This document shows positions 4,053 to 20,026 of a stretch of 64,000 nt of DNA, in pieces. Below the pieces are notes generated by a model. It made no database searches and was not told the origin of the DNA. It saw nothing but the letters and a program-made list of their open reading frames with translations. Every line of letters begins with the position of its first letter. Position 1 is the stretch's first letter. Made by a program: the position numbers and the translations under genes. The stretch comes from Flavobacteriales bacterium (GTDB lineage: Bacteria > Bacteroidota > Bacteroidia > Flavobacteriales_D > Crocinitomicaceae). Where the stretch lies: the NCBI GenBank assembly GCA_947449575.1, contig CANFRV010000006.1:1-64000 (forward strand), read 5' to 3'.

Positions 4053-4911
4053 AGTGCAATTATTTATTATTAAAATTATTATTAAGAAATTGATGAACAA
4101 AGATTTATTACTCGGTTGAATCATTTCCTTCCTTGTTGATATGGTCTGCGTATTAACTTTAGTGAATTCAATTGAAATTGTAAATACCAAAAAATAAATA
4201 ATTGATATTCATATTGTAAAAGTTAAGTTGGTACGATATGTATCCTATCTAGTAGGTATGCATAGTACCCTAAATAGGGTCTCTTTTGTACCCATATACT
4301 ATATAAGTACTATAACCAATTTATGGTGGTGGTTTCGTTTATACTACACCACTCACCAAAGTGTAACAAACAAAATTTTTATTATTTCTTTTACATAATA
4401 TAAGAATTTACGAAGTGAATCAAAAAAGAACTTACCAATTTTCAATTAAGTTGAAATAGCTTTTATCAATTTTTTTTAATAAGAATTATCAACCCCGAAG
4501 GGTAACTAACCAGTCCATTTTAATTACTATCAACTTTAATTGAATTAAAATCGAATTAATAAACTTATTTCAAAAATAACTATCAATCCCCGAAGGGTAT
4601 ATACCCAGCCCTATACCCAGAGGATTTCAATGGTTCTAAAACCATTGCAGAATAAATAAAATTATGATTTTGATGATGTGGCATCAGCCCTATCGATAAC
4701 TAGCTGATGATTGATATCAACTATACAAATATCCTACTTTTTTAGGAGAATTACAAATTGGTCGCATAACCTAATCAGCAAAAAATGGCTAAATTGATTA
4801 AATATAAAACAGTATTATATATATTGACATATGCGATTGATATTGAGGTATATACGAAATTTAAATTCTAAATAAAAAAATCAACATTTAACAAATAATT
4901 AACATTTAATT
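4053..4911. other. Palindrome-rich non-coding tract, possible origin or transfer region
   Basis: No gene is seen here. The tract holds perfect palindromes or hairpins: ACCCTA-aa-TAGGGT (4267-4280), GGGTATATACCC (4595-4606), CAATGGTT-ctaa-AACCATTG (4628-4647) and CATCAGC/GCTGATG (4682-4709). It also has a direct repeat of CCCCGAAGGGTA at about 4493 and 4588. Such clustering next to a replication-like winged-helix gene is typical of an origin of replication or transfer, but no iteron array or nic site could be proven. Confidence 0.4.
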
Positions 4912-5538
4912 TCACTTCATCCAACTCGTTTTATTGAACGTTACCGCCTTTAAATCTCCACTATCATCAAACGCAAAAACAGAAGTCAAAGCTCCATTTG
5001 TTTTAATATTGAATGACTTTAATTCATTATAATGTTCAACGTACCATTGTTTATAGTCATCACCACCATTTTCCAATAGAATCTCAAACTGTTCTCTGGT
5101 TGATGACTTTTTTTGCGCTGTAAAACGATGAGGTCTGAAGATAGTACTTGCATCATATTCTTGTTGATAGCGATGAAAATGATAATCATTTATTTCAAGA
5201 CAACAAAAGATAATATTAGGATGCAGATGCGTTGCTCGATAATCCAAAGAGAAAGTAAAGGATTCTTTTTGTGCTTGGGTTAAACTTGGGTGAAAAGCGA
5301 AGCAATTATGAAAATTGTTTTCATCTACCCAATCAATAATCTCATACATGATATTGAGTGCCTTTTCGACTTCATTCCATGGCAGTGGTTCTGGCATCAG
5401 TTCATCTTTTTTATGATTGAAAATAGAATATGGTAATGAAGACCAGATGGATAGCGATTCGTCTGTTGCCAAAAGCCAAAAGGAACAAATAATAGTATCC
5501 CAATCATTTTTCAGATATGTCCAATAAACCACTTTCAA
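4912..5538 (-). CDS. Hypothetical protein, 208 aa
   Basis: I do not recognise this Trp/His/Phe-rich soluble protein. The frame opens with TTG at 5538 directly after the stop codon of the upstream gene; GTG at 5532 is an alternative. The zero-base spacing implies translational coupling with the 101-aa gene. Visible stretches include IDWVDENNFHNCFAFHPSLT and a His-rich segment DYHFHRYQQEYDAS. There is no signal peptide or membrane segment. The gene pair has its own palindromic promoter region and could be a two-component accessory module such as toxin-antitoxin or defence. There is no motif to prove this. Confidence 0.5.
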   Translation of the reverse strand: MKVVYWTYLKNDWDTIICSFWLLATDESLSIWSSLPYSIFNHKKDELMPEPLPWNEVEKALNIMYEIIDWVDENNFHNCFAFHPSLTQAQKESFTFSLDYRATHLHPNIIFCCLEINDYHFHRYQQEYDASTIFRPHRFTAQKKSSTREQFEILLENGGDDYKQWYVEHYNELKSFNIKTNGALTSVFAFDDSGDLKAVTFNKTSWMK

Positions 5539-5844
5539 TTAGTTCAGAATTTGAATTTGCATCCAATACTTAAAGTCATTAATTAGCGCATCAGTGTTGT
5601 CTATGTTTTCTGTCAAATGGATTATTTTTTGAAATCTTTCAATTCGCAATACAAGAGTTAGGTCATGATTTATGAAAATGGTGGTGAAATGTGGAATACC
5701 AAATATATTAAAGTCAAATTGCACCACTCGGTGATACTTTTCTGAATAGTCCTTAAAAGAGTCCAATTTATCTGCTAAAATGCTAATGAGAAAATGTTGA
5801 TGCTTTTCTCTGAATAGTTGAACTTTACTTTTCTTGTTTCTCAT
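5539..5844 (-). CDS. Hypothetical protein, 101 aa, first gene of a coupled pair
   Basis: An unrecognised basic N-terminus (MRNKKSKVQLFREKHQHF) leads into a beta-rich body (VVQFDFNIFGIPHFTTIFINH) and an acidic end. Its start codon lies inside the left arm of a perfect 16-bp inverted repeat (5843-5886), so the gene may be controlled by a dimeric DNA-binding protein. It is followed without a gap by the 208-aa gene. A small basic protein followed by a larger one is the usual shape of an autoregulated module, but no DNA-binding fold is evident. Confidence 0.5.
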   Translation of the reverse strand: MRNKKSKVQLFREKHQHFLISILADKLDSFKDYSEKYHRVVQFDFNIFGIPHFTTIFINHDLTLVLRIERFQKIIHLTENIDNTDALINDFKYWMQIQILN

Positions 5845-5886
5845 TACTAATTATATTAATATAAAAATACTAATATAATTAGTAAT
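5843..5886. promoter_or_regulatory. Perfect 16-bp inverted repeat at a start codon
   Basis: ATTACTAATTATATTA (5843-5858) is the exact reverse complement of TAATATAATTAGTAAT (5871-5886), with a 12-base spacer. It overlaps the start codon of the minus-strand gene and lies 111 bp before the Xre gene on the other strand. A dimer operator or recombinase crossover site is likely. The ACTA...TATTA core resembles the palindrome at 7071-7112. Confidence 0.6.
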
Positions 5887-5997
5887 ATAAAAATAAAGTA
5901 TTGAATCATATTTGGATAATTAGACCAATATGATTGCTAAAATGTAAATCAAGGCTGATTAGTTCTTAACTTTAACCAAATTATTTTCAAAAGAATA

Positions 5998-6237
5998 ATG
6001 GCGGTAAAAACACGTATAGGAGAGATATTAAAAGCAGAGGGAAGAACCAGCAAGTGGCTCGCTCTGAAAATGAATAAAACTCAAAATACAATCAGTCTTT
6101 GGGTGAATGGAAGAGTATCTATTACACTCGATGACCTGTACCAAGTAAGTGAAGCGCTCGGCGTTCCTGTCAAAGAACTTTTATATGAAAACCTTATTGA
6201 GGGGCAGTCAAAAATTAATTCTAGAAAGGTTGAGTAG
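5998..6237 (+). CDS. Xre-family HTH regulator paired with the ART-like gene
   Basis: A 79-aa DNA-binding protein of the Xre/Cro-C1 family. The helix-turn-helix spans roughly residues 6-60: a first helix TRIGEILKAEG, then WLALKMNKTQNTISLWVNGR as scaffold and recognition helices, then the family-typical TLDDLYQVSEALGVPVKELL. It ends 10 bp before an ADP-ribosyltransferase-like gene on the same strand, so the two are probably co-transcribed. Xre antitoxins are often encoded next to NAD-using ART-fold toxins of the RES family, which is why a toxin-antitoxin role is plausible here. It could instead be a simple island repressor. Confidence 0.85.
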   Translation: MAVKTRIGEILKAEGRTSKWLALKMNKTQNTISLWVNGRVSITLDDLYQVSEALGVPVKELLYENLIEGQSKINSRKVE

Positions 6238-6247
6238 ATAAAAAATC

Positions 6248-6937
6248 ATGGAAAAATACTGCGTACAATACTCGATGGCTTTGACTGTGATAGGTCAAGG
6301 AAAACAATTTGGGTTAAAGATTGCGAAAGAAATTTTCGAAATCTCAAATAGTGATTTTGAAAATAACGACAATTTTGTTCTATTAATAAACGATTATTTA
6401 AATGGTAAAATAACCTACGAAAACACTGAAAACAAATTATTTAATAATCTCGTTGCAGAATTCAGAACAAAGGGAATTTCTGACTGGTCAATAATTGGCA
6501 CTTACCTTGGCAGAGAAAATATTTTTAAAATATTTAATCATGTGCAAGATGATTTGACAGATAAAGATTATTGGATTGTTCTTGGTGAATGCTATATCAT
6601 GAGTTCTTTTTCGCATTCAACGCATGAATTAATTAAAACATTTTTTAATTCTGACAGACCAGATAAAATGCGCATAATGACTGAGGAAGAAAGGTTGGAG
6701 TTTGATTCACTTCCAAATGAAATTAAAATTTACAGAGGATGCAGTGAACAGGAAATAAAAAGTGAAAATTTTCGATTTAGCTGGACAACTAAAAAAAGTG
6801 TTGCTCATTTTTTTGCAAAAAGAAATAAAACAATGCATGGCATCAAGAGTTCTGTTGTTACAAGAACAATTAAAAAGGAGGAGGTTTTTGCTTATTTTAG
6901 CAGGCGAAATGAATTTGAGATTATTTATTTTCAATAA
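6248..6937 (+). CDS. ADP-ribosyltransferase-like protein
   Basis: 229 aa with no signal peptide. The C-terminal third has the layout of an R-S-E type ADP-ribosyltransferase fold: IYRG with Arg163, a FSWTT strand (Ser178 to Thr181) followed by the helix SVAHFFAKRN, and a final NEFEII strand carrying an E-x-E pair (Glu222, Glu224). These are the positions at which NAD-binding Arg, Ser/Thr and catalytic Glu sit in the family. The N-terminal half is helical and unrecognised. It follows an Xre gene by 10 bp. An NAD-dependent toxin or modifier is inferred; sequence similarity alone cannot show activity. It might also be a phage-type ART without a partner. Confidence 0.5.
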   Translation: MEKYCVQYSMALTVIGQGKQFGLKIAKEIFEISNSDFENNDNFVLLINDYLNGKITYENTENKLFNNLVAEFRTKGISDWSIIGTYLGRENIFKIFNHVQDDLTDKDYWIVLGECYIMSSFSHSTHELIKTFFNSDRPDKMRIMTEEERLEFDSLPNEIKIYRGCSEQEIKSENFRFSWTTKKSVAHFFAKRNKTMHGIKSSVVTRTIKKEEVFAYFSRRNEFEIIYFQ

Positions 6938-7070
6938 AGTTAAATTGAAAATCACATTTCATTTTTTGCCTAAATTAATTTCTATTCTCTTTTGAACAAT
7001 TATAAAATTAGGGTATACCGTAAACTGTAGAAAAAGTAATACCCAAAAAATTTGGAATTCTAGACAAAAA

Positions 7071-7112
7071 ATACTATATTAGATTAAAAATTGTTACATC
7101 CTAATATAGTAT
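7071..7112. promoter_or_regulatory. Perfect 12-bp inverted repeat at the resolvase start
   Basis: ATACTATATTAG (7071-7082) and CTAATATAGTAT (7101-7112) are exact reverse complements with an 18-base spacer. The right arm ends one base before the resolvase ATG. Small serine recombinases commonly bind dimer sites of this kind beside their own gene, so it may be both operator and crossover site. Confidence 0.6.
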
Positions 7113-7113
7113 A

Positions 7114-7740
7114 ATGAAAATACTCTACACCCGTGTTTCAACAGCCGAGCAAAATGCTGAAAGACAAATTCAAAACACTGAATCATTTGATTATGTTTTT
7201 ATAGACAAGTGCAGCGGAATAATTCCTCTTTGGGAGCGCCCTAAAGGGAGGGAATTAAAAAAATTGATAGACAATGGGACATTGAAGCATCTGACCATAC
7301 ACTCAATTGACCGCCTTGGGAGAACCACCCTATCAGTGCTTCAGGTCTGGAAAGAATTAACGGAGATGGCTATTGTTATTGAATGTAGAAATCCCAACCT
7401 CAGGAATCTGGATGATAATGGTAAACCAGACATGTTTTCGGAACTGATGATTTCAATTTTGTCAACAATGGCTTCTTTCGAGAAGAAGATGATTAAAGAA
7501 CGTCAAATGGAAGGTGTTCGAATTGCAAAAGCAAAAGGTGTTTATGTTGGAAGAGCTGTAAATACAAAAGAGAGTTCGGAGAAATTTTTATTGAAATCAA
7601 AAAATAAGAAAATTGCCGAATATCTCTCTGCTGGTTATCCTATGGCCGAGATTGTCAAAATCTTGAAATGTAGTTTCAGTACTGTGAATAAAGTGAACAA
7701 GTATAGGTACGGCAATGATTCAACAGAAATTGTATCGTAA
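7114..7740 (+). CDS. Small serine resolvase/invertase
   Basis: 208 aa, normal for the resolvase/invertase family (Hin, Pin, Tn3 TnpR). The catalytic domain begins ILYTRVSTAEQ with nucleophile Ser9, and the DRLGR motif (residues 66-70) supplies the conserved active-site Arg. The long E-helix region (ISILSTMASFEKKMIKERQMEG) and a C-terminal helix-turn-helix (roughly 165-200, YPMAEIVKILKCSFSTVNKV) complete the fold. The gene appears intact. It stands directly behind a perfect inverted repeat that could be its binding site. It probably inverts or resolves DNA within the island; the partner site is not identified. Confidence 0.92.
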   Translation: MKILYTRVSTAEQNAERQIQNTESFDYVFIDKCSGIIPLWERPKGRELKKLIDNGTLKHLTIHSIDRLGRTTLSVLQVWKELTEMAIVIECRNPNLRNLDDNGKPDMFSELMISILSTMASFEKKMIKERQMEGVRIAKAKGVYVGRAVNTKESSEKFLLKSKNKKIAEYLSAGYPMAEIVKILKCSFSTVNKVNKYRYGNDSTEIVS

Positions 7741-7805
7741 GGTATGGCAAGGCAAAAAAGAAAATTAGCATCACGTATCAACTAGAGAAGACGAAACATT
7801 CATTC

Positions 7806-7907
7806 ATGGTTGTTAATCCTGACCGTCTTTCGAACGATGAAGTCAAAAGGATTTGTTATAGAATGGGAGTGGATAAACTTTTGGTGAATTGGAGATTCTA
7901 CCATTGA
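7806..7907 (+). CDS. Possible 33-aa protein or gene remnant
   Basis: A short frame from ATG 7806 to TGA 7907 encodes a plausible protein-like sequence (MVVNPDRLSNDEVKRICYRM, then GVDKLLVNWRFYH). The open frame extends upstream to 7719 without another ATG and overlaps the resolvase end. It may be the 3' remnant of a larger gene or a true small protein. It ends 3 bp before the convergent MORN/FISUMP gene. Confidence 0.3.
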   Translation: MVVNPDRLSNDEVKRICYRMGVDKLLVNWRFYH

Positions 7908-7909
7908 AA

Positions 7910-9859
7910 TTAATCTATAACGCAACGAACTGAGAATCCAAATTTCTTTTTATCTGTCAACTTATTATCAGATACTAATATTTTTGTTAATAATGGAAGG
8001 AAACTGATTTTATCAGACCCAGAATTCAACGATATGTAATTCACTGCTGATGCACAAAACCAAAATCCGTTAGTGTATTTTGCGCTAAATATTCCTCTTG
8101 ATAATCGCTCTCCCCCTGACACGGCATTAAAGTTCTTTGCTTCTAGAATTCGTATGTCAAAATCATAATTTCCTTCCAAGCACCATGAACCATCCGCTTT
8201 TATTTTTTTACCTGCGATATCTTTTCCCCCAAAATGGTTTGCTAATTTAAGCCATTCTACCTCACTGGCGATGTGCCAACCTTTAGGAGCTAAGCCCCTT
8301 GGGTCATTTACAGCGTACCAATTATACAATTTACCATACTTTGCTTCATTCGATGAGCCATTATCGTAGTAACACCAGGCTGGTTGGCCCCTTTCTCCAG
8401 CCCTTTCCCAATCTTCATTATTTATCGCATGAGGAATTAGGTCGCCATTACGAAATCTATCTACATTGAGATTTTGAGCAATCCAAGTCTGTTCGCCGAT
8501 TTTAATACCTTTAATACCATTAATGTACACGAATTCATTTGTAAGTGGCTTCTCCTTTCCTATGTATATACCTTTTTCATAATACCCGTTTTCTTCTGTC
8601 CTGTCCTGTCTTACCTTCGTTCCAAATCCTTCCCACAGTCCATTTTTCCATTCACCTTTATACTCACTTTTGTCGTTGTATAAAAAATGTCCATATCCAT
8701 CATACCGTCCTGTTAAAAAATTTCCATCGTACCGTTCACCACCATTGTATATAATAGTTCCAATACCATTTGGCAAACCATCTATCGATTGGCCATAGTA
8801 TAAATCTTTGTTAGCATAAAATCTAACCATATATCCATTGCTACCTAAAATAATTAAGTCGAATCCTCTGAGATTTTGCGTTTTCCAATTGCCTGAAGCA
8901 AGTTTGTTTTGAGTTTTGGTTTCGTAAAAACCTCCATGTCCTTCTATTTCATTTGAAACCCAATTTCCTTTGTAGGTTAATCCAAAGTGATAGACAAACT
9001 CACCATAACCCGAACGATTATTTTTTAAGAAATTTCCCGTGTAGACTGAACTGTCGGCGTATATTAATTTCCCTTTTCCCTGCAGACCTTTTAAGTATTC
9101 TCCTTCGTATATATTATGATTAGTGTAACGAATAGTTACATAGCCATTTACCTCGCCATTCACCCAAGTACCTTCATAAATGTTTCCATTGGCATCCGTA
9201 TACTTTCCAAAACCATTTTCGTGGTCATCGAACCAAGAGCCTTCATATATATCATTTAAGGAATCAATATAGGTTCCTTTTCCTTGTCGGTTATCATTAA
9301 CCCAATCACCTTCGTATGTAGCACCAGATTTATAAGTCATCTTCCCAAATCCATTTCTTTTGTCATTCGACCAGCTTCCTGCATAAATCCCCCCATCCTT
9401 ATCTAAAAACTCTCCATATCCTTCTTTTCCTTTATTATACTTTCCCTTGTACAATGCTTTATTGCAATATGCAATAACAACATCACCCAGTAATTCCCCA
9501 TTTGTCCATGTTCCTTCGTAAATATTTTTCTTTTTGTCAGTGTATTTACCTCGGCCATGCTTAGAATCATTTAGCCAAAGACCTTCATGTTTTCCACCAT
9601 CAGAATCAAAATAAGTACCATACCCTTCTTTGATATTCATCTTCCAATCACCTTCATAGGATGAACCATCTTTAAACTGAATCTTACCTTTCCCATTGCG
9701 CATTTTATCATTAAACGCACCAGTGTAAATACTACTATCAGCATATCTGTATGTACCAAACTTATTTCGACAATTACCATCGATACACTTGGGTTTTACA
9801 GTTTGTGCGAAAACTGAAATATTTACGAAGAGTGTTAGAAAATACAATAAATTTCTCAT
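7910..9859 (-). CDS. Secreted MORN-repeat protein with C-terminal FISUMP domain
   Basis: 649 aa. It starts with a signal peptide (MRNLLYFLTLFVNISVFAQ), then a two-Cys cap (KPKCIDGNCRNKFGTY). About 14 MORN repeats of the form Y-x-G-x-(W/F)-x-x-x-x-x-x-G-x-G follow, from residue 40 to 430. The C-terminal third is a FISUMP domain (TIGR02145 family), recognised by IGEQTWIAQNLNVDRFRNGD, LYNWYAVNDPRGLAPKGWHI and the ending FGFSVRCV. Both modules are typical of Bacteroidota surface proteins of unknown function. It is the last gene of a co-directional array. Its N-terminal half is a close paralogue of the 811-aa protein at 14293-16728. Confidence 0.85.
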   Translation of the reverse strand: MRNLLYFLTLFVNISVFAQTVKPKCIDGNCRNKFGTYRYADSSIYTGAFNDKMRNGKGKIQFKDGSSYEGDWKMNIKEGYGTYFDSDGGKHEGLWLNDSKHGRGKYTDKKKNIYEGTWTNGELLGDVVIAYCNKALYKGKYNKGKEGYGEFLDKDGGIYAGSWSNDKRNGFGKMTYKSGATYEGDWVNDNRQGKGTYIDSLNDIYEGSWFDDHENGFGKYTDANGNIYEGTWVNGEVNGYVTIRYTNHNIYEGEYLKGLQGKGKLIYADSSVYTGNFLKNNRSGYGEFVYHFGLTYKGNWVSNEIEGHGGFYETKTQNKLASGNWKTQNLRGFDLIILGSNGYMVRFYANKDLYYGQSIDGLPNGIGTIIYNGGERYDGNFLTGRYDGYGHFLYNDKSEYKGEWKNGLWEGFGTKVRQDRTEENGYYEKGIYIGKEKPLTNEFVYINGIKGIKIGEQTWIAQNLNVDRFRNGDLIPHAINNEDWERAGERGQPAWCYYDNGSSNEAKYGKLYNWYAVNDPRGLAPKGWHIASEVEWLKLANHFGGKDIAGKKIKADGSWCLEGNYDFDIRILEAKNFNAVSGGERLSRGIFSAKYTNGFWFCASAVNYISLNSGSDKISFLPLLTKILVSDNKLTDKKKFGFSVRCVID

Positions 9860-9962
9860 ATCAGGTATTTAATAGTATCAAAAAGTATGAAAACAAGAAG
9901 AACAGATTAAGGATTCATAATATTAAGCTTTACTGAAAGAAAAAATTCAAAATGTAAAATTT

Positions 9963-11411
9963 CTAATCTTTAACGCATCGAACAGAGAATCCATAGCTAT
10001 TGTTCAGGTACTTTTGAGCTTTAATACGGTCTAAGTATGAACTTAACTCATATATTCTAGCGCCGTAATACCAGTCTTTCGTTGTACTCCACCATGAACC
10101 GACTTCATCACCGTTGTAAAAAACTCCATCATTGTCCCTTGCACCTCCAGGTAAACCAGAGAATCCTGAAATATTCGTGCCATTACCTTGATTAAGCCAA
10201 CCATTATTTAGTTTCATGTTTTTACCTGTATTACCAGAGAATCCTCCCAAAAAAACAACCATATTACTCCATTCGTCATCTGATGGAATATGCCATCCAA
10301 ATGGGGCTAATCCTCTTTTATCTGTTAATGCATAAGAATTATAAAGTTTCCCATACTTCAGTCCATTGTCAGGTTTATTCTCATAATAACACCATGCAGG
10401 TTCTCTATTATTACCAGCTTTAATCCATTCTTCAACGGTTTTGGCATGTTTTATTGGGTCACCATTTCTGAATTTATCAACTTCAAGATTTTGAGCCATC
10501 CAAAATTGATTTTCTATTTGAATCAGCTTGAACTCATTTCCATTTTGGTCTTTTTCCATATCATATTTTAATTTGTTATCCCCACCATTGAGTGTTGGTT
10601 CATTATCTTTGAAGCATCTTATATTATAACCTATTTCTTTATATCCATCAATATGAAATTCAGCTTTTTCATTTTGGTTTGAGAGGTGAAGTGAAGTTGG
10701 TTCAGTATCTAGAACCCAATAGCAAGCAAGGCTACCTAATGAAAGAATATTATTACCCCAATAGATATAACCGTTGGGTTGACCATTGAATTTTGAACTA
10801 TTTGTTCCATTGCCATCTCTCTTAATTTTTCCACATGGTCCGCTGTGTTTGCCTCTTTCTGATGGTTTAATCCATAAAATGTTTTTGCAATTTGAGCAAT
10901 GTAAGTCATCGTTCCATTCTTTCCAACCATTAGATGATTTCATCTTATCTCCTGCAATTTCATAACCAAGAGCATTAATGAATTGTGTTAATTCATTGCT
11001 ATTTGGTATATGCCACCCTTCTGGAGCAATTCCTCGTCTATCTTTAATGACATGCCAATTATAATAGATAGAAACTTGACCATTAGTTAATTTTTTTGCA
11101 AAGTATGCTGGAATGTTTTTACGACACGCCAGAAGCCATTCCTCACTGGAGTTTGTTTGCATTATCGTTTCTCCATTTTTAAATGTCACTACATCTAGAT
11201 TCTTAGTTGAAAATTCAAATCCTTCAATCACATTAGTTTCATTTTGAAGCAATGGCTCAGTCGATGAACTTTTCTGAACATTTTTTATTGAATTTTCAGA
11301 GCTTTCCTTTTCAAACTTGTTTTCAATTACATGTTTTTTATCTTTTATTCCATTATTTTCACATGAAATGAGACTTAATGCGATGTAAATTAATAATAAG
11401 GTCCTATTCAT
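9963..11411 (-). CDS. Lipoprotein with two FISUMP domains
   Basis: 482 aa from the ATG at 11411, chosen because the lipoprotein signal MNRTLLLIYIALSLISC starts there. A GTG at 11444, overlapping the upstream stop as TAGTG, would add 11 residues. Two FISUMP-type domains follow. The first (roughly residues 65-275) is divergent: it keeps YYNWHVIKDRRGIAPEGWHI but carries an inserted four-Cys-like segment (HCSNCKNILW, then GPCGK). The second (roughly 290-482) is canonical, with QFWMAQNLEVDKFRNGD, APFGWHIPSDDEW and GFSVRCV. It is predicted to be anchored in the outer membrane or periplasm. Function is unknown. Confidence 0.8.
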   Translation of the reverse strand: MNRTLLLIYIALSLISCENNGIKDKKHVIENKFEKESSENSIKNVQKSSSTEPLLQNETNVIEGFEFSTKNLDVVTFKNGETIMQTNSSEEWLLACRKNIPAYFAKKLTNGQVSIYYNWHVIKDRRGIAPEGWHIPNSNELTQFINALGYEIAGDKMKSSNGWKEWNDDLHCSNCKNILWIKPSERGKHSGPCGKIKRDGNGTNSSKFNGQPNGYIYWGNNILSLGSLACYWVLDTEPTSLHLSNQNEKAEFHIDGYKEIGYNIRCFKDNEPTLNGGDNKLKYDMEKDQNGNEFKLIQIENQFWMAQNLEVDKFRNGDPIKHAKTVEEWIKAGNNREPAWCYYENKPDNGLKYGKLYNSYALTDKRGLAPFGWHIPSDDEWSNMVVFLGGFSGNTGKNMKLNNGWLNQGNGTNISGFSGLPGGARDNDGVFYNGDEVGSWWSTTKDWYYGARIYELSSYLDRIKAQKYLNNSYGFSVRCVKD

Positions 11412-11443
11412 TATTGTGACGAATTTAATATGATTAGTAATCA

Positions 11444-12724
11444 CTAGTTTAATTGAAAATTAATTGGCAATGTAAATTTCATTCTTGATTTTTCGCCATT
11501 TATTGTTCCTGGAATCCAATTTGGCATAGATTTCAAAATCCTTAATGCTTCTGCATTTAATTCTTCTGAGACACCTCTTTTCACTTTAGCATCCGATATT
11601 TTACCGTCACTCTCAATATAAAATTCAATATAAACCCTTCCTTGAATTCTATTTTCGATTGCTGACTGAGGATAATTCAAATGTTCTTGAATGTATTTCA
11701 TTAACGCTGCTGTTCCACCTGGAAATGCAGGCTCTTCAATAACTTGGTTTTTTGTTATTTCTAAATTGTTTTGTTCACTTGACTTTGAGTTGTTTTCTGA
11801 TTGATAATTACTAGATTGTTTGGTTTCATTTTTTTGCGAATTATAATATGCTTGACTTGATTCATATTCGGCCTGTTCTTGTTGGCGGTTATATTCGGCT
11901 TCATCGTATGAATCACCACCATCTTGCCTCCTATTTTGAATTTGGTGATGCCAGGTATCACCAGAAGCAAAAACCTGCAGGAGTTCATTATTTGAAATTT
12001 CGAAAATACAATATTTTCTGCCATCAGATTTTCTCATTTCTAATTGAGAATTTGAAATATAATGTCCAGTAAACTTATGTTCTTTATCTACCATCATCAA
12101 AATATTAACTAAATCATTAGTCAATTCAAAACTCCAAGAAATAATTTTGTTATTTTGCTTTTTTAAATTTCCATTATTTTCTATGTATGAATAATCAGTC
12201 TTAATAAAATAAGTTTTATCCTTAAAACTTTGATTGTCATCTGAAAAACCAGATAACTTCTTTGAGAATTCATGTGCTTTATCATTTTGCTTAAAACTAG
12301 AATTTGAATGAACTGCATTAAAAATCTTCGAATTATTACTTGTAGAGATTAGTTCATTTCTTTGCTTATTATATGTAAACACTTCTTCTTCTGAACTCGT
12401 TATGCCATCTGAAGATTTGTAAGTATAATGAACATAAATCTTACCTTCATTAATCTCCCAGCTCATATCCCCAATATCTTCATGTAAAGTGGTGCTTACA
12501 GTCCAAGCTACATAATATGTTCCAATGCCATTTTTTTTAAATGAAAACTCTTGTTTGGTCTGTCCAAATGAGTCAGTCGATTTATTAGAAAATGTTTGAC
12601 CAATAAAACCCTTAGAAACGATTGTTTCATAGGTCGATTGCCTTTTACCCTCATCATGGGTCGTTGGAGTAGAACAAGAAGCAACACCAAATCCAATCAA
12701 AATGTAAAGAATAATCTTATGCAT
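11444..12724 (-). CDS. Lipoprotein with C-terminal TonB domain
   Basis: About 426 aa from the ATG at 12724; a second ATG lies 9 bp upstream at 12733. The signal MHKIILYILIGFGVASC ends in a lipobox Cys. The central region is beta-rich and then low in complexity (Glu, Gln, Asn and Ser between about residues 270 and 325). The last 100 residues are a TonB C-terminal domain: EEPAFPGGTAALMKYIQEHL, YPQSAIENRIQGRVYIEFYI, PNWIPGTINGEKSRMKFTLP. Free-standing TonB-C lipoproteins are common in Bacteroidota and often accompany surface systems. It lies one base from the FISUMP lipoprotein and probably shares its mRNA. A hybrid copy of its last residues ends the fragment at 12746-12964. Confidence 0.8.
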   Translation of the reverse strand: MHKIILYILIGFGVASCSTPTTHDEGKRQSTYETIVSKGFIGQTFSNKSTDSFGQTKQEFSFKKNGIGTYYVAWTVSTTLHEDIGDMSWEINEGKIYVHYTYKSSDGITSSEEEVFTYNKQRNELISTSNNSKIFNAVHSNSSFKQNDKAHEFSKKLSGFSDDNQSFKDKTYFIKTDYSYIENNGNLKKQNNKIISWSFELTNDLVNILMMVDKEHKFTGHYISNSQLEMRKSDGRKYCIFEISNNELLQVFASGDTWHHQIQNRRQDGGDSYDEAEYNRQQEQAEYESSQAYYNSQKNETKQSSNYQSENNSKSSEQNNLEITKNQVIEEPAFPGGTAALMKYIQEHLNYPQSAIENRIQGRVYIEFYIESDGKISDAKVKRGVSEELNAEALRILKSMPNWIPGTINGEKSRMKFTLPINFQLN

Positions 12725-12745
12725 ATTTATCATTTTAACTTATAT

Positions 12746-12964
12746 TTAATTCAACGAAAAATTTATGGGTAAGGTGAATTCTTGTCTCGCCTTTAAACCA
12801 TTTCGCATTTTATCAATGAATTCTCCTGAATAAATACTGCTGTCAGCATAGATGTATGTTCCGATTTTGTTCCTACAGTTGCGGTCCAGGCATTTTGGTT
12901 TTACTCCTTGTGAGAATGTAATAATAACCTCTAGCAAAAAAAATAACGACAGGATATTTTTCAT
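12746..12964 (-). pseudogene. Chimeric scar: MORN protein N-terminus fused to TonB-C tail
   Basis: A 72-codon frame. The first about 57 residues match the N-terminus of the 811-aa MORN protein: signal peptide, VKPKCLDRNCRNKIGTY and SSIYSGEFIDKMRNG. The last residues switch abruptly to the end of a TonB C-terminal domain (ARQEFTLPINFSLN, compared with SRMKFTLPINFQLN in the neighbouring lipoprotein). No MORN array or TonB-C body remains between them. This is best explained by an internal deletion that joined two tandem genes. The frame is open, so a small secreted peptide could still be made. Confidence 0.75.
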
Positions 12965-12999
12965 AATTAGATTTTTTTAGACTTTATTTATAATCTAGT

Positions 13000-14289
13000 T
13001 TAACGCAAATCATTACTAAGTTCAATCAACATATCTCGATACTTCTGCAAAGAATCCGAATTCTCTAATTCTTCAAATGAAAAAGATTTCTCTGAGCCAT
13101 CATTGTCATAAAAAATAATGTTATCCTCAAATTTACCCATCCATTTATTTGCAATAATTTTCGGCATTCCATTATTATATAATTCCTTATAAATTGCATA
13201 TTTATATTCTAACTCATCATTATGATTTTCTACTTCAGTGTATAAAACAAAACTTTTTGGGAAGCCATTTGAATAATATGTTTCTATACTTTTTGAGGAA
13301 TCTGAGAAATTAATTATTTTATATAACGAATTATTTGTAAATAAAGAATCAATAAGTAAGTTTTTTGAATATGTTCTTGTGAAGAAATAATTTTCAGATT
13401 CAGATTCAAAATATCCTTTCAGATTAAAGCTTTCAGATTCTAATTTCTTGAATAATTCATTCAATAAATTTGCATCGTTATTCAAACTGAAAGGAGATTT
13501 TGCCCCATTTAAATAATCATAATATGATTCAGAATCAATACCATCAAATGGTGTTGATTCAAGAATAAAATTTATAATGTCCACCTCAGATGACCATAGA
13601 TTAGACACAGTATAATTCAATTTGTTACTTTCAATTCTATTAATTTTACCATCTACGAAAAATATCTTTCTATTTATTCCGAACTTTTCTTCAATCAAAG
13701 ACAATGCATTATTCTGAAAGTAATGAATTGAGGTAATATAATCAGCATCTTCGCATGAATGATAGGTTATTTTTTTAAGCTCTCCATTCGTGTCATATTC
13801 TATGACATAATTGGCACTCGAACTTTCATCAATAGCTCCCTCTATTCTTGGGAATTGATTGAATTTATTTGTATCATAAGAGATATGAAGTTTTAAACTA
13901 TTATTTATTGTATAATCACAATCCAATTCAATTGGATTTCTGCCTCCCCAAATTTTTGTATCATCTCTTTTAACGCCAATTAAAAAATTCTTTTCAAAAT
14001 TATATTTATACTCATGCACTCCTAAACTAATTGCAGCTTGGTCATTTATTTCTTTGAATTCTTCTTTAAATTCAATTTTCCAACCTGAAATTATTTCTTC
14101 ATGTTTTTTTAGTTTTGTAATTAGATTTGTCTGGAAATTAATATCACAAACTAAGATTCCGTTCTCATTAAATTCTTGATAATGACCATATCTTAATCCA
14201 TTATTTCTTTTAATCTTTATTACCTGATTTTGAGAAATTAAACAAAATGAGAAAGTGAATTGAAGAAAAGTTAGTATAAGATTTTTCAT
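13000..14289 (-). CDS. Secreted protein, paralogue of the C-terminal half of the 811-aa neighbour
   Basis: 429 aa with a signal peptide (MKNLILTFLQFTFSFCLISQ). It begins with a YwqK/MORN-like element (NGLRYGHYQEFNENGILVC). Its C-terminal half parallels the end of the upstream 811-aa protein: both have an IDSLFTNN/VDSIYSNN element, an ETYYSNGFPKS/ITHYFPTGKLKS element and a final ...YDNDGSEKSFSFEELENS / IYDQNGNKQEYSEKELSE. It is therefore a truncated paralogue that lacks the MORN array. It starts 3 bp after the 811-aa gene stop, so the two are co-transcribed. Function unknown; extracytoplasmic location predicted. Confidence 0.65.
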   Translation of the reverse strand: MKNLILTFLQFTFSFCLISQNQVIKIKRNNGLRYGHYQEFNENGILVCDINFQTNLITKLKKHEEIISGWKIEFKEEFKEINDQAAISLGVHEYKYNFEKNFLIGVKRDDTKIWGGRNPIELDCDYTINNSLKLHISYDTNKFNQFPRIEGAIDESSSANYVIEYDTNGELKKITYHSCEDADYITSIHYFQNNALSLIEEKFGINRKIFFVDGKINRIESNKLNYTVSNLWSSEVDIINFILESTPFDGIDSESYYDYLNGAKSPFSLNNDANLLNELFKKLESESFNLKGYFESESENYFFTRTYSKNLLIDSLFTNNSLYKIINFSDSSKSIETYYSNGFPKSFVLYTEVENHNDELEYKYAIYKELYNNGMPKIIANKWMGKFEDNIIFYDNDGSEKSFSFEELENSDSLQKYRDMLIELSNDLR

Positions 14290-14292
14290 AAT

Positions 14293-16728
14293 TTATTTTT
14301 GACCGTTATGTTCATGATGGTTATTTTTTATTTCCCTTAAAAGTGATTTGTATGTTTCTGAAAGTTCTTTTTCAGAATATTCTTGCTTATTACCATTCTG
14401 GTCATAAATAATAATTTTCTTTAAAATTTCTCCTTTATCAAAAAGAACAGACATATTAACCTTTCCATTATCGAAGAAGCCTATAAGTTCCCCATCTGGG
14501 ACAAAAGTATTATAGTCAGATATCTTGAAACAATAATTTTCATTATAATCAATATATCTACAGGAGGACTTCAACTTACCAGTGGGAAAATAATGTGTGA
14601 TTGTTAATTCATTGTTTTCAGACAAAACAATCACATCACACAAAATATTGTTAGAATAAATTGAATCCACCATAAATGAATTCATTATATATCTTTTAAA
14701 AGAATATTTATTTTTTTTCGAATCTGTGTAACTCCCTGATATTTTGAACTTACCTATATTCAAATATAAAATAATTGAAGTATAATCACTTCTATCACCT
14801 AGTTCCTTTATAAATTCATATTCTTGAATCAATCTTTGTCTAATACCTTCATTTGATGACTCTTTTTCAATATAATTTATTTCATAACTGTAAAAAGGGC
14901 TTTCAATTTTTTTTATTTTTCCATTTTCTAGAAACATTTTCTCATCATAGCTAGAACCTTCGGCATCTCCTTGATAATAATCTGTTTTTTCATTTATAAT
15001 TACCTCTTCTTTTTTTATCTGATTTTCATATATCACCTTTTTTTTTGTTGAATTTTCATTTAGTCCGTCACCCTCTATTATTTCCCAACCTGATATAATT
15101 TTACTTTCATTAAAAACCTCTACATATTCAAGTGTTTCGTAGAGAAGTTCGGCAATTAAATTACCTTTTTCATCATATCTAGATAAATTACCATATCTCT
15201 CTCTGTCAAAAACTGAGCATTGTTCACTTATTACTCCATTTTGGTGAAAACCAATAAATTTTGCTGGGACATTACATCTTTCAAAAGGATTTATATTGTA
15301 AATAAATTTATGTAACATGAACACTTTACTGAAATATGCATGTTCGTGTAATTCATTTGTGTCAAAAACTAAAATATATCTTAAAAAATATTTTTCTCTT
15401 TCGTCACCCGTAGAATAATTATATGCGGTATCTATTAATTTTCCTTTATCATATTTACACTTATAACGGATTTTTCCATCTTCTCGGTAAGTGATTTTAT
15501 CACCTTCAAGTAAACCATTTCTATATTTTTTAATTTCTTCAATTTTACCGTTTCTATAATAATCAGTTTGCGTTCCCTCAAGAATTCCATTTCTGAAGTT
15601 TTGGATTCTAAGTACTCTTCCATTTTCATCAATATCTTTCCATTCTCCTTCTTTTATTCCGTTAATACAATTCCCTAATCTCTTGTCGGCAATAGTGCTA
15701 GAATTCCATTCTTCATCGCACGATTCTATACATTGAATAAACGTTGCTAATTCGACCCTTTTCTTTGCACCAATATAATTATCTACTCTCCAATAACCTT
15801 TAATAATAGACTTATCCGAATTAGTGAAAACACCATAACCATCTTTTAGATTATCCTTCCATTCTCCGTCGTATTCACTTTTATCTGAATTATAAAAATG
15901 CCCATTGCCGTTATATTTTCCATCAGAAAATTCACCATCATAATAAGCTCCATTTTTATAAACAATTCTTCCATGTCCATTATAAACTCCATTACGAGTA
16001 TTTCCTAAAAACATATCTTTATTTGAAGAGTAATAAATCAAATATCCATCAGTATTCATGAACTTTAATTCTATTTCCTTTGATTTCTCTGTTTTCCAAT
16101 TACCCGATGCTAAAAGCTTTTGTGTTGATGTTTCATAAAATTCACCTGTTCCTTCAACTTCATTTGCATTCCAATTTCCTCTATATGTAATTCCAAATGG
16201 ATAAATCATTTCACCATAACTAAAGTGCAAGTTTTTATTCCAATTTCCTTTGTATACAGAGCCGTCTGAATATGTCAAAGTACCTTTACCATTGAGACCA
16301 TTGACATATTCTCCTTGATAAACATCGTTGTTTTTGAATTGAATCCTAACATTACCTATTAATATTCCATCATTCCAACTTCCGTTGTATATATCTCCAT
16401 TTACATCTATTTGTTTACCAAAGCCATTTTGTTTGTCATTAGACCAAAGTCCTTCGTATTTATTCCCTTTTGAATCAATATATGTACCAGTGCCGCTTCT
16501 TTTATCTAAAAGCCACGTGCCTTCATAATATGAGCCGTCTTTGTATAATATTTTACCTTGTCCATTTCGCATTTTATCGGTAAATTCTCCTGAATAGATG
16601 CTACTATCTTCATATAAATAGGTGCCAATTTTGTTTCTACAATTACCGTCTAAACACTTAGGTTTTACTACTTGTGAGAATAAATTTATGCCATTTAATA
16701 AAATAAATATTGTAAGTATGTTTTTCAT
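14293..16728 (-). CDS. Secreted MORN and YwqK-like repeat protein, 811 aa
   Basis: It opens with a signal peptide (MKNILTIFILLNGINLFSQ) and the two-Cys cap KPKCLDGNCRNKIGTY. About 12 MORN repeats follow (roughly residues 40-325). Three or four longer YwqK-family repeats come next (roughly 345-440: NCINGIKEGEWKDIDENGR, FRNGILEGTQTDYYRNGK, YRNGLLEGDKITYREDGK). The C-terminal 350 residues are shared with the next gene. MORN and YwqK repeats form beta-hairpin solenoids that often scaffold interactions; no enzyme motif is seen. It is the first gene of the array, so the operon promoter should lie between 16729 and the divergent Xre gene. Confidence 0.75.
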   Translation of the reverse strand: MKNILTIFILLNGINLFSQVVKPKCLDGNCRNKIGTYLYEDSSIYSGEFTDKMRNGQGKILYKDGSYYEGTWLLDKRSGTGTYIDSKGNKYEGLWSNDKQNGFGKQIDVNGDIYNGSWNDGILIGNVRIQFKNNDVYQGEYVNGLNGKGTLTYSDGSVYKGNWNKNLHFSYGEMIYPFGITYRGNWNANEVEGTGEFYETSTQKLLASGNWKTEKSKEIELKFMNTDGYLIYYSSNKDMFLGNTRNGVYNGHGRIVYKNGAYYDGEFSDGKYNGNGHFYNSDKSEYDGEWKDNLKDGYGVFTNSDKSIIKGYWRVDNYIGAKKRVELATFIQCIESCDEEWNSSTIADKRLGNCINGIKEGEWKDIDENGRVLRIQNFRNGILEGTQTDYYRNGKIEEIKKYRNGLLEGDKITYREDGKIRYKCKYDKGKLIDTAYNYSTGDEREKYFLRYILVFDTNELHEHAYFSKVFMLHKFIYNINPFERCNVPAKFIGFHQNGVISEQCSVFDRERYGNLSRYDEKGNLIAELLYETLEYVEVFNESKIISGWEIIEGDGLNENSTKKKVIYENQIKKEEVIINEKTDYYQGDAEGSSYDEKMFLENGKIKKIESPFYSYEINYIEKESSNEGIRQRLIQEYEFIKELGDRSDYTSIILYLNIGKFKISGSYTDSKKNKYSFKRYIMNSFMVDSIYSNNILCDVIVLSENNELTITHYFPTGKLKSSCRYIDYNENYCFKISDYNTFVPDGELIGFFDNGKVNMSVLFDKGEILKKIIIYDQNGNKQEYSEKELSETYKSLLREIKNNHHEHNGQK

Positions 16729-16964
16729 GTTTCAAAAATTAATCGCAACAACAAATATCTTTTACATCTTGAAAATCAGCTTCAGTGCTTTCAATTTTTG
16801 GATTCATTTATCAATAAAATATTTTCATCTTTTTCAAATCATATATTTTAACTTCCATCTTGATTTTCAGTTTTCATTGCAGCCTAAATCAAAAATAATA
16901 AAATTACATCGTCATATCAAATTATGACTATAATTTGTTAACAAAAGAGGAATTTAGCGTCATA

Positions 16965-17207
16965 ATGAAATTTGACGCCGATAAACTATCCAAAGAACAA
17001 TTATCACAAAAAATAGGTCAACAAATCAAGCATTATCGCCAAAAAATTGGAATAAGCCAGGCTGAACTTGCAAGACGGTGCGAAAAAGACAAACAGCACT
17101 TAGAGCTTATAGAAAATGGTAAGGTATCATCTAACAGTTATTCTTTATATCTAATTTCATTAGCTCTCGGAATAGAATTATCTGAGTTGCTGCATTTGAA
17201 AGATTAA
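16965..17207 (+). CDS. Xre-family HTH regulator divergent from the MORN operon
   Basis: 80 aa from the ATG at 16965; an in-frame TTG at 16935 would add ten residues. The Xre fold is clear: IGQQIKHYRQKIGISQAELA then RRCEKDKQHLELIENGK for the scaffold and recognition helices, closed by YSLYLISLALGIELSELLHL. The 236-bp gap to the divergent 811-aa gene makes it the natural candidate regulator of the MORN/FISUMP/TonB-C operon. No operator was identified. It could also be an orphan phage-type repressor of the island. Confidence 0.85.
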   Translation: MKFDADKLSKEQLSQKIGQQIKHYRQKIGISQAELARRCEKDKQHLELIENGKVSSNSYSLYLISLALGIELSELLHLKD

Positions 17208-17220
17208 AAATTTCACAAAC

Positions 17221-17893
17221 TTAAAAATCAATTAAATTTAACGTCAAATAATCTGCTAATATGTTCAATCGAAAAATATCTTCTTTAAACTTATTTTTGT
17301 TAGATAATTCAGATAGGTAGTCTACAAAGCCATAAGGCAACGAAAAAAGCAATCTAGAAATAGGTTGCTTTTTGTCATTTATACCCATTGTATCCCTTGA
17401 TAATGCTGAACTAATCAAAAAAAGATTTACATTTTTGGTTAGATATCGCCTATTTTTAATGTCCAATGACAAAACTTCTGGAAACACTAATTCTTGTGTT
17501 CTCTTTTTTACCTCGATGTTATTTAAACCCCAGTATTTACTGATGTTTGAAACTACATCAACTGACATATCAATGTATTTATCTAGGTTAGATATTTTTG
17601 AATCCGTTTGAATTAACTTTAGTTTCAAATCTTCTATCTTACCTTCTAATTTTGATTTTAGTACGTTATAAATCTTTTTATCATCTATTAAACCTTTTGC
17701 ATTTCTAACTACCTTTTACAACATCACCATCCAACAATTTATGAGCTACCAATCCAGCATAAAATAGATTTCTCCATATATCACTCAATGCTAGAAGTTT
17801 CCACTGCCATACCATTTTATTATTTCCCCTGGGCAGCAGATTAGAAATGTGAAATCTTTTTAAGTATTCCAATATACTATTTTCCATTTTCAA
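17221..17893 (-). pseudogene. Decayed large serine recombinase
   Basis: Two fragments in the same order as the intact enzyme at 118-1686. The 5' piece (17893-17705) preserves MVWQWK...LSDIWRNLFYAGLVAHKLLDGDVVKGS, matching WQWK...LSDMWRKPFYCGVSVHRLLEGEAVMGN. After a stop, the 3' piece (from about 17691 on) preserves the coiled coil and the tail NISKYWGLNNIEVKKRTQEL...DIKNRRYLTKNVN. The catalytic N-terminal domain and the zinc ribbon are gone. The tail continues about 60 residues beyond that of the intact enzyme. It marks an older integration at or near the right edge of the island. Confidence 0.8.
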
Positions 17894-17927
17894 TCGTATT
17901 AAGGAGAGTAACTAAAACCAAAACGCT

Positions 17928-18593
17928 ATGAAAAAAGTAATTCTAATAATTGTTCTGCTGCTGAATGTTTATTTTCAAGCCCATTCACAGATATATTCAT
18001 ACACTGGCAAGGCTTGGGGTTTTAGTACTTCTCTTCAACCGTTTATTTGTTTATATCAGAAAAATGCAAAATTACAATGCGATGCATTTTCTGGGTCACT
18101 TGCTTTTTCAAAGAAAATAGCGAAAGGAATCTATCCTACAATTGGTTATTCATTTACAAAAACAACGCAAGAAAAAAATACTAATGGAGAGAGAATTGAC
18201 GGTAATGCTTTAGGTTTTAATGTGGGGCATTCTATAAACTCTTCAATTTTAATTCAAAAACATTTGCTTGTAACGCAAAGCAGACGTATTTCATCTGGCT
18301 GTTTCGTGCAAAGTTTGAGTTTAATTGTAGCGCCCGAATATAATTATATGTTCATTGATGGCAATCGAACAAATGTGTCAAAGGGCGAGTTTGCATTAAA
18401 AGCAGGAATTTGTTTATTTAATAGTTACTCAGGTACTGTTTCTAGAAATGTGTTGTGGGATTTGTATTATAGAAAAGGATTTACTCCTATCGTTGCGTAT
18501 GATGATCAGTTTGGGAAACAACAATTTTACAAAGATGAAATTGGAATTCAAGTAAGATATATCTTTCGTCAACGCTACGATTTTAGCAAATAA
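17928..18593 (+). CDS. Putative outer-membrane beta-barrel protein
   Basis: 221 aa with a signal peptide (MKKVILIIVLLLNVYFQAHSQ). The mature part alternates polar and aromatic or aliphatic residues in strand-like stretches (SLAFSKKIAKGIYPTIGYSF, ALGFNVGHSI, EIGIQVRYIF), consistent with a small outer-membrane barrel. The terminal RYDF is compatible with outer-membrane insertion, although it is followed by Ser-Lys. It starts 34 bp beyond the recombinase remnant and is the first gene outside the presumed island. No specific family was recognised. Confidence 0.55.
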   Translation: MKKVILIIVLLLNVYFQAHSQIYSYTGKAWGFSTSLQPFICLYQKNAKLQCDAFSGSLAFSKKIAKGIYPTIGYSFTKTTQEKNTNGERIDGNALGFNVGHSINSSILIQKHLLVTQSRRISSGCFVQSLSLIVAPEYNYMFIDGNRTNVSKGEFALKAGICLFNSYSGTVSRNVLWDLYYRKGFTPIVAYDDQFGKQQFYKDEIGIQVRYIFRQRYDFSK

Positions 18594-18683
18594 ATAAGGT
18601 ACTATGGTATTTTTATCATCGATAATGAGTAGATCTTCTCAAAAATAAACCTAAATTTAGCATCTATCTAATAAATTTGGAGA

Positions 18684-18809
18684 ATGGCAAGAATTTCATC
18701 ACTGCATACTGAACTTTTCAAAATTCAAGTATTAACTGGCTTGGAATTAAAAATGAAAAAATTGGTAAGTAGCAATTTTGAAGGTTTTTCTCATAAAGAA
18801 ATGATATGA
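18684..18809 (+). CDS. Small 41-aa protein translationally coupled to the SDR gene
   Basis: A short ORF of 41 codons starting MARISSLHTELFKIQVLTGL and ending at TGA 18809. Its end overlaps the start of the next gene in an ATATGA arrangement: the SDR ATG is at 18806-18808 and the stop at 18807-18809. A purine-rich GGAGA lies just upstream of its ATG. The coupling makes real translation likely. It has a helical, weakly amphipathic composition with no membrane segment. It could be a small partner protein or a leader that sets SDR translation. I do not recognise it. Confidence 0.5.
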   Translation: MARISSLHTELFKIQVLTGLELKMKKLVSSNFEGFSHKEMI

Positions 18810-19804
18810 TTTTAGTTACAGGAGGAACTGGATTATTGGGGAGTCATTTACTTTTTAAATTGACAGAAAAAAATAGTCGTATCAAAGCACTTTTTAGAAA
18901 TGAAAAAAAAATAGAAGTCGTGCGCCGATTATTCATTTACTATGACCCTGTGAATGGCCAGAATAGATTTGATACGATTGAGTGGGTTCTATGTGATGTT
19001 CTTGATGTTATCAACTTGCATGAGACAATGGTCGACTGCCAATACGTATATCATTGTGCAGCAATTGTTTCTTTTCAAAAGCGTGATTTTTTCGCAATGA
19101 TGAAAACAAATAGACAAGGCACAGCAAATATTGTAAACAGTTGTCTTGAAAATGGGATTCTTAAATTATGCTACGTTAGTTCAACAGCAGCAATTGGTGG
19201 TGAAGGAGAAGTGTCAATTTCAGAAGAAACTAAATGGAAACAATCTCCTCAAACTTCAGGATATTCTATTACAAAATATTCTGCAGAAAAAGAGGTTTGG
19301 CGAGGAGTTGAAGAAGGATTGGATGTTGTAATTGTCAATCCATGTGTAATTATTGGTGCTGGCGATTGGAATGAAAGTTCTTTAACCATTTTTAAAACCA
19401 TTGCATCTGGATTAACATTTTATACCAACGGGGCAAATGCTTTTGTTGATGTTCGAGATGTATCTGATATCATGGTTCAATTGATGGAAAGCGCTATTAA
19501 AAATGAACGCTTTTTATGTATCGGGGAAAATAATTCATTTAAAAACCTCTTTGATTTAATTGCCTTAAAATTGAATAAAAAAGCGCCTTCTGTATTAATT
19601 AAGCCATGGTTAATGGGTATTACGTGGCGTTTCATTTGGCTTTTCACAACCCTTCTAGGTAAGAAGTCTGCCATTACGAGAGAAACGGCCAGAAGTGCAT
19701 TTGGTACTACGATTTATGAATCATCCAAAATCAAAAAACAGTTGAATTTTCAATTTCGTTCCTTACATGAAATGGTCGAAAATGCGATCAAAGGGAGGAT
19801 GTAA
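18806..19804 (+). CDS. NAD(P)-dependent epimerase/dehydratase (extended SDR)
   Basis: 332 aa. The N-terminal Rossmann motif GGTGLLG (residues 6-12) binds NAD(P), and the catalytic pair is in YSITK (Tyr153, Lys157), with Ser residues in YVSSTAAIGG at 123-132. The IIGAGDW and FVDVRDVSD segments are typical of the dihydroflavonol-4-reductase-like branch. It probably reduces or epimerises a small carbonyl or sugar nucleotide; the substrate cannot be read from sequence. It is coupled to the 41-aa ORF and stands apart from the downstream sulfur-metabolism gene. Confidence 0.85.
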   Translation: MILVTGGTGLLGSHLLFKLTEKNSRIKALFRNEKKIEVVRRLFIYYDPVNGQNRFDTIEWVLCDVLDVINLHETMVDCQYVYHCAAIVSFQKRDFFAMMKTNRQGTANIVNSCLENGILKLCYVSSTAAIGGEGEVSISEETKWKQSPQTSGYSITKYSAEKEVWRGVEEGLDVVIVNPCVIIGAGDWNESSLTIFKTIASGLTFYTNGANAFVDVRDVSDIMVQLMESAIKNERFLCIGENNSFKNLFDLIALKLNKKAPSVLIKPWLMGITWRFIWLFTTLLGKKSAITRETARSAFGTTIYESSKIKKQLNFQFRSLHEMVENAIKGRM

Positions 19805-19897
19805 TTTTATAACCTCAGTTGTTTAATTTCATTCGGTAAATGATAATAAGATAAAAACAACGTTAGTATCCGATCAATTTTTACCTTGTTATTGTTG

Positions 19898-19930
19898 AAT
19901 CGAGAAATAATTTATAATTCTTTCTCGATT
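19898..19930. repeat. 10-bp inverted repeat upstream of the transsulfuration gene
   Basis: AATCGAGAAA (19898-19907) and TTTCTCGATT (19921-19930) are exact reverse complements with a 13-base spacer, about 100 bp before the cystathionine gamma-synthase/lyase start. No T-run follows. It may be an operator or leader hairpin, or a terminator for the SDR gene. Confidence 0.4.
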
Positions 19931-20026
19931 GCTAAAGTACTACATAGCTTGCAACGTGTTTGTTTTTGATGCTTTTTCTATTAATTTTACGCTACCAAAA
20001 ACAAAATAAACACAATACTAATAATT

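Follow-up and report, generated by a model that had tools for sequence, protein, structure and literature searches.

The first 64 kb of contig C6 (CANFRV010000006.1) from a Flavobacteriales bacterium, whose genome comprises 3.5 Mb in 69 contigs, carries six co-directional, minus-strand open reading frames (ORFs), here designated A to F, that fill positions 7910-16728. The locus raises the question of whether so compact a set of exported proteins is a modular system that diversifies by recombination, as was suggested in an earlier note on these 64,000 nucleotides (hereafter, the window), and, if so, where it belongs and what its products may do. Our analysis gives about even chances to the view that the locus is an array of exported binding proteins that moves horizontally and diversifies by recombination, with its home context beside a polymorphic sensor.

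Exchange is seen most directly when the window is compared with a related array, L064, in genome G087, which belongs to a different genus than the source genome (g17 and g1, respectively). One segment of the window array (12799-11838 along the minus strand; Table 1) begins at a junction within ORF C. The remaining window-L064 matches of more than 300 nucleotides show 65-69% DNA identity, and two short ones of 63 and 102 nucleotides show 79% and 71%, respectively. Within D, identity to the L064 homologue stops sharply at codon 299, where the C-terminal domain is exchanged. Beyond this point, D continues into TonB_C and its homologue into an unrelated CSCGxxDCG module. The D N-domain, which is 89% identical in the two proteins, is under purifying selection, with a ratio of non-synonymous to synonymous substitution rates (dN/dS) of 0.27 for G000 versus G087 (0.51 in the first half and 0.10 in the second half). 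This shared part is thus kept by selection while the tail changes.

ORF C is built of two parts. Its first 56 residues are 79% identical to A and its last 18 residues are 89% identical to the end of the L064:9584-9958 product, a complete, exported-looking TonB_C protein of 124 residues, while the DNA on either side of the junction shows an in-frame join. C is a recombination scar rather than an intact gene. Accordingly, the six genes of the earlier note stand as six ORFs, but only five full-length genes remain. Directly before A lies what is left of a lipoprotein gene, G. The G gene is complete at the corresponding place in L064 and in L063 (genome G147), and at the best shift 43 of 60 bases match between the window remnant and L064, as compared to 31 or fewer in 2000 shuffles. 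In L066 (genome G059), approximately the last 27 residues of G remain before a MORN-FISUMP gene. As remnants of G are found both before A and before this L066 gene, the order of G followed by a cap-MORN gene looks old, with G apparently having been cut away in the window and in L066. Diversification by recombination, previously offered as a possibility, is therefore visible as a 93% identical segment with sharp ends, as chimera C and as gene-tail remnants.

The features of the window that are considered here are collected in Table 1. From F to A, the intergenic gaps measure 103, 32, 12, 35 and 3 nucleotides. Listed by size, the ORFs encode 72, 429, 429, 482, 649 and 811 residues, and the G+C content of the array is 31%. 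Signal-peptide-like N-termini were recognized in A, B, C and F and a lipobox in D and E, by eye and with an export classification script that is crude and whose lipoprotein call for B was judged to be wrong. The domains match Pfam families above curated cut-offs: MORN (PF02493) in A and F, MORN_2/YwqK (PF07661) in A (58.8 bits, with a cut-off of 29.6), FISUMP (PF09603) in E and F (192.2 and 105 bits, with a cut-off of 33.9) and TonB_C (PF03544) in D (64.4 bits). What sets the array apart from these four families as such is the way in which it joins their domains to one another and to family-specific exported parts. The VKPKC-x-D-x-NCRNK-x-GTY cap is present in A, C and F, and a search of the source genome with A found no match to the cap residues beyond the array. 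The MORN parts of A and F are 41-42% identical across two stretches, and B aligns with the C-terminal half of A at 24% identity (60 of 253 columns, E=2e-7). The earlier description is thus borne out as regards close spacing and common direction, secreted proteins or lipoproteins, the four module types, a cap found three times, C-terminal halves common to 13000-14289 and 14293-16728, and a divergent Xre gene at the array head. One consensus-like promoter lies about 160 nucleotides upstream of A, although such matches are no commoner than expected by chance (2 observed, 6.2 expected).

Table 1 Features of the window (strand of the stretch as read; nt, nucleotides; aa, amino acids).
Feature	Position	Strand	Description
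Large serine recombinase of the island	118-1686	-	
Small serine resolvase/invertase	7114-7740	+	Pfam assignment; convergent with the array
Gene F	7910-9859	-	649 aa; exported-looking; VKPKC cap, MORN and FISUMP
Gene E	9963-11444	-	Lipoprotein with two FISUMP stretches; 493 aa from GTG, 482 aa from ATG at 11411
Gene D	11444-12733	-	429 aa; lipoprotein N-domain, linker EYNRQQEQAEYESSQAYYNS, C-terminal TonB_C
Exchanged segment	11838-12799	-	93% DNA identity to L064:9905-10866; ends in the TonB_C gene tail and at D codon 299
ORF C	12746-12964	-	72 aa; in-frame chimera of MORN cap and TonB_C gene end; no Pfam family
Gene B	13000-14289	-	429 aa; repeats the C-terminal region of A as a free-standing gene; no Pfam family
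Gene A	14293-16728	-	811 aa; exported-looking; VKPKC cap, MORN repeats, MORN_2 and family-specific C-terminal region
Remnant of the G lipoprotein gene 3' end	16739-16778	-	Encodes ADFQDVKDICCCD-stop, directly before A
Promoter-like match TTTG-N20-TANNTTTG	16890-16921	-	Upstream of A; suggestive only
Xre-type regulator gene	16935-17207	+	Divergent, 206 nt from A; HTH_3 E=1e-9
Recombinase fragment	17221-17628	-	43% identity over 80 residues to the C-terminus of the 118-1686 product; no Pfam match of its own

To consider how far such arrays extend, 240 genomes of the family were searched with the D N-domain and with two further modules, K and G. The D N-domain is found in five of these genomes, namely the source genome, G059, G087, G130 and G147, and the arrays that match it (L066 in G059, L064 in G087, L085 in G130 and L063 in G147) are all co-directional. 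Module K is found in two genomes (G059 and G130) and module G in three (G059, as a fragment, G087 and G147), while neither appears in any of the 240 genomes that lacks a D N-domain match. It should be noted that K and G were defined from these very loci, such that only their absence elsewhere is informative. The 41 array genes that we tabulated (6 in the window and 35 in the other loci) encode, according to the same crude script, lipoproteins and exported proteins, with SHOCT-domain or membrane proteins in L064 and L085. Modules recur among these arrays in different company. The D N-domain is followed by TonB_C in the window, by the CSCGxxDCG module in L064 and by a DnaJ-like zinc module in L085, where the N-domain is just 29% identical over 103 residues. 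Module K follows MORN-FISUMP in L066 and LamG in L085, at 71% identity. The DnaJ-like zinc module (71%), G (61%) and H (37% over 62 residues) are likewise shared between arrays. The comparison of module order across relatives, as had been proposed, thus finds the rarer modules linked in new combinations rather than single and unlinked, but FISUMP and plain MORN genes also occur singly.

Two side observations concern the neighborhoods of these arrays. At L064:2606-6071, SHOCT-N-terminal membrane proteins alternate with lipoproteins, and the three SHOCT paralogues are 59-87% identical and contain glycine-rich membrane segments. Beside the G147 array, at L063:4529-7390, three paralogous genes, one of them short, which we take to be KilA/RhuM-like, show related N- and C-terminal parts in various combinations.

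Further afield, a D N-domain profile matched 7 of 399 genomes in an order-wide sample, all of the window's family. Among these, the matches of G208 and G226 correspond to the zinc tail of the L085 member and that of G149 to a weak N-terminal part, while G147 is absent from these matches. In a wider collection of genome contigs, A found no relative and F found 10 MORN relatives in other bacteria. Plasmid records were matched by F in 4 cases and by D in 15 (via TonB_C in the 10 listed), and one phage record was matched by F, via its FISUMP part. The viral collection contained no match to the D N-domain, and the A profile matched two places there, on one contig with a YwqK-type array of its own, judged to be a different thing. 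L121/L122 (IMGVR_UViG_3300031963_008158), a 116-kb contig of this viral collection, presents a striking expanding gene family of more than 20 co-directional ORFs (about 80-200 residues) that consist almost purely of YwqK/MORN_2-type repeats, with many 4-nucleotide overlaps and no export signals by eye. In L065 (G084), which matches B at E=4e-4, no array was seen by eye, and this locus was set aside together with L067 and L068. A single lipoprotein-like protein of 810 residues in L029 (G010, same genus) consists of MORN cap, MORN, FISUMP, more MORN and a cysteine-rich tail, such that array modules are fused in one protein.

Three arrays, all found without a kinase query, share an upstream context that the earlier note did not mention. 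Genes for a response regulator and a propeller-repeat histidine kinase (Reg_prop/His_kinase) stand immediately upstream of the arrays in L063 and L085. The source genome has a second array, on contig C14, which came to light through a zinc-module match and which is also downstream of such a pair. The L063 regulator is of the LytTR type by Pfam and shares 35% identity with the regulator of L085, whose kinase was likewise assigned by Pfam. When the L063 kinase was used to search 51 genomes of G147's genus, G147 and two others were matched at E<=1e-150. In one of these, G232, the pair is followed by a WG-repeat gene and a VKPKC-cap MORN gene, at which point the contig end cuts the locus (L147). 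The regulators of C14 and L147 are 70-72% identical to that of L063. The pair itself varies between strains: DNA on the regulator's side is 92-96% identical between G147 and G232, while the kinases share only 41% protein identity, and the kinase of G232 shows 78% identity to its counterpart in the source genome, a member of another genus. Downstream genes also differ between G147 and G232, save for the cap-MORN gene at 45% identity. On C14, moreover, small genes are interspersed with direct copies of the kinase gene 3' end, of 769 columns (88%) and 215 columns (75%). The kinase site is probably the array's original home. As a separate observation, direct repeats of 126 nucleotides (95% identical) lie upstream of the regulator gene and some 10 kb downstream at C14:8000-18500 (L148/L149), where they flank the kinase-array block, and other short dispersed repeats of about 75-210 nucleotides lie nearby.

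The window copy has a different setting. Serine recombinases lie nearby, as expected for the mobile island that had been proposed, and the surrounding region is mobile or variable. Window positions 17817-20342 are 97.7% identical to G008, the closest relative available, while positions 1-17816 have no match in the 36.5 kb of G008 that were compared, and A, B and the D N-domain have no match in G008, which is 86% complete. Because of this incompleteness, and because G008 carries other DNA to the left of the shared edge, position 17817 appears to mark the boundary of a variable region and does not amount to a clean empty site. Invertase-type sites beside the array were not seen among the 25 longest of 150 inverted pairs. 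Elsewhere in the window (5998-6937), an Xre gene is followed by a gene for a 229-residue protein with a YRG...SWT...E-like pattern and no Pfam match at E<=1. We take this pattern to recall ADP-ribosyltransferases, and the two genes may form a toxin-antitoxin pair.

These observations can be accommodated by the following explanation. The locus would be one copy of an array that is rare, moves horizontally and consists of genes for exported beta-repeat proteins and lipoproteins. In such an array, conserved N-terminal parts (VKPKC cap with MORN; D N-domain) would stay in place, while neighboring genes and C-terminal modules would be exchanged. Exchange would proceed stepwise, by homologous or short-homology recombination with a breakpoint often near a gene 3' end, and would yield new pairs of N- and C-termini while leaving gene tails and heads as scars. 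The home of the array would probably be downstream of the LytTR response regulator and propeller histidine kinase, a pair that varies between strains and that may regulate it, and the window copy would have come to lie inside a serine-recombinase island, behind an Xre gene and without the pair. The products may act as binding proteins in the outer membrane or periplasm, in which the constant part would provide for export and serve as scaffold and the variable module would determine the partner, and contact with other bacteria or phages may provide the selection. Binding proteins are suggested by export-type N-termini, by beta-repeat and lectin-like domain types and by a constant front joined to a variable rear. 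A bolder extension, which we consider a long shot, is that of a polymorphic recognition cassette, in which a variable extracellular sensor kinase would be swapped jointly with a matching array of envelope proteins. Older arrays would then either move downstream, behind scars made of kinase tails, or be copied onto mobile islands, and strains would end up with distinct sets for identity or contact sensing that do not match one another.

Several points weigh against this explanation and need to be considered. Neither the window array nor L066 has the kinase pair next to it, and L064, which begins at a contig start, cannot be judged in this respect. L146 (G233) has a kinase homologue and no module match within the stretch examined, and the kinase-tail copies are found on C14 only, being absent from the other loci searched. 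In the L063 protein, the match to the D N-domain is confined to the second half of that domain, while L067, L068 and L087 contain MORN or FISUMP genes outside recognizable arrays (MORN proteins in the case of L067 and L068, in G081 and G173). The dN/dS of the D N-domain reflects constraint, not diversifying selection, and chimera C could be an assembly error. The structure models of D and B are poor (mean predicted local distance difference test scores, pLDDT, of 51.5 and 48.4), and the case for a binding role therefore comes from domain type alone. Fold matches of both models are weak, TonB_C excepted. The match of B to teneurin/Rhs shells was not used, as the template modeling score was only 0.13-0.19, and neither were a short match of the D N-domain to the BP39L lectin in the PDB, with no stretch passing alone, or weak matches to CitA. 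By sequence, the A/B profile found nothing convincing in the PDB, and F matched eukaryotic MORN proteins there (24 sequences at E<=0.001).

Recombining, strain-variable envelope loci are already a known kind. TonB energy transducers carry an N-terminal inner-membrane anchor, whereas D has TonB_C with a lipobox at its N-terminus in place of the anchor. YwqK antitoxin is the cytoplasmic partner of a YwqJ-type toxin, whereas A has MORN_2 but an export-type N-terminus, and no toxin domain was recognized among the 18 window ORFs scanned. The rAID clusters of Bacteroidales, as far as the accessible part of their description goes (PMC12247911), likewise consist of exchangeable genes in co-directional arrays of low G+C content near recombinases. 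They are marked by a tyrosine recombinase upstream, by conserved motifs between the genes, by a G+C content below 41% and by short, co-oriented genes of about 100-300 codons. Neutralization of T6SS effectors is a further rAID trait. That the locus is an orphan-immunity cluster of this type would agree with its variable, co-directional arrays near recombinases and its G+C content, with the small lipoproteins and SHOCT/membrane proteins of L064 and L085, and with a tyrosine recombinase at the far (3') end of L085. We nonetheless regard this as unlikely. The window genes are much longer (none of the six ORFs falls within about 100-300 codons), only serine recombinases and no tyrosine recombinase were found among the 18 window ORFs scanned, and no 6-8-mer exceeded the shuffle maximum in the 60 nucleotides upstream of 39 array genes, although a gapped or more distant motif is possible. 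PADLOC matched 0 of 10 window proteins, and Pfam scans of 25 of the 41 array proteins recognized no toxin domain. The last result also bears on the toxin/immunity pairs of loci for contact-dependent inhibition (CDI) and Rhs, which, in the part of PMC4927057 available, resemble the arrays in that variable 3' modules are replaced by recombination and displaced orphan modules keep parent-gene sequence, comparable to the kinase tails of C14. Here, however, no CdiA/Rhs parent and no toxin/immunity pair were recognized, and the repeated tail is that of a histidine kinase. Such copies of a parent-gene 3' end are seen on C14 only, the window having just remnants of other gene ends.

The window copy, with its lost parts (C and the G remnant), could also be decaying. 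It would then be what is left, without function, of an array that became trapped in a recombinase island. The recombinase fragment at 17221-17628 fits such decay as well, but five long ORFs are intact with export-type N-termini and the D N-domain is under constraint, such that we hold this to be improbable. Chance adjacency of ordinary envelope paralogues, whose linkage would mean little because FISUMP, MORN and TonB_C are common, draws on the 91 of 200 family genomes that F matches at E<=1e-20 (mostly FISUMP among the matches listed) and on the 38 of 395 genomes of a class-wide sample that match the A/B region, where the matches listed from outside the source genome fall within positions 7-205 of 517, the MORN_2 part. 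Confinement of the D N-domain, G and K to the same loci in five of 240 genomes and exchange at the DNA level between genera speak against it, and it seems quite unlikely. Diversification of the FISUMP domains by a diversity-generating retroelement (DGR) is barely credible: FISUMP is a reported DGR target, Fib_succ_major being listed in nine putative DGR variable proteins in the accessible part of PMC4159848, but the 18 window ORFs scanned, the rest of the genome not having been searched, contain no reverse transcriptase, and no template/variable repeat pair appears among the repeat families shown for 7800-17850.

The view of a horizontally moving, recombining array of exported binding proteins is thus the one we retain. 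The earlier observation is confirmed overall and its interpretation is partly supported. A related kind of variation is known from 'Candidatus Ornithobacterium hominis', with up to 17 FISUMP genes per genome and a complement never fully identical between two samples, although the accessible part of that report describes no MORN/TonB_C arrays or two-component pair (PMC6421346). Such arrays were not found described in the open-licence literature (titles and abstract openings, with subscription journals mostly outside), and their composition and link to a variable kinase pair look undescribed within the literature that can be searched. Bacteria of this group commonly have MORN, YwqK-like and FISUMP proteins, FISUMP-type matches being present in many genomes of the family. 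For most of these proteins, we know of no role. A locus with module exchange and readable scars, whose relatives have their arrays beside a variable sensor kinase, offers a concrete place at which binding and variation may be tested.

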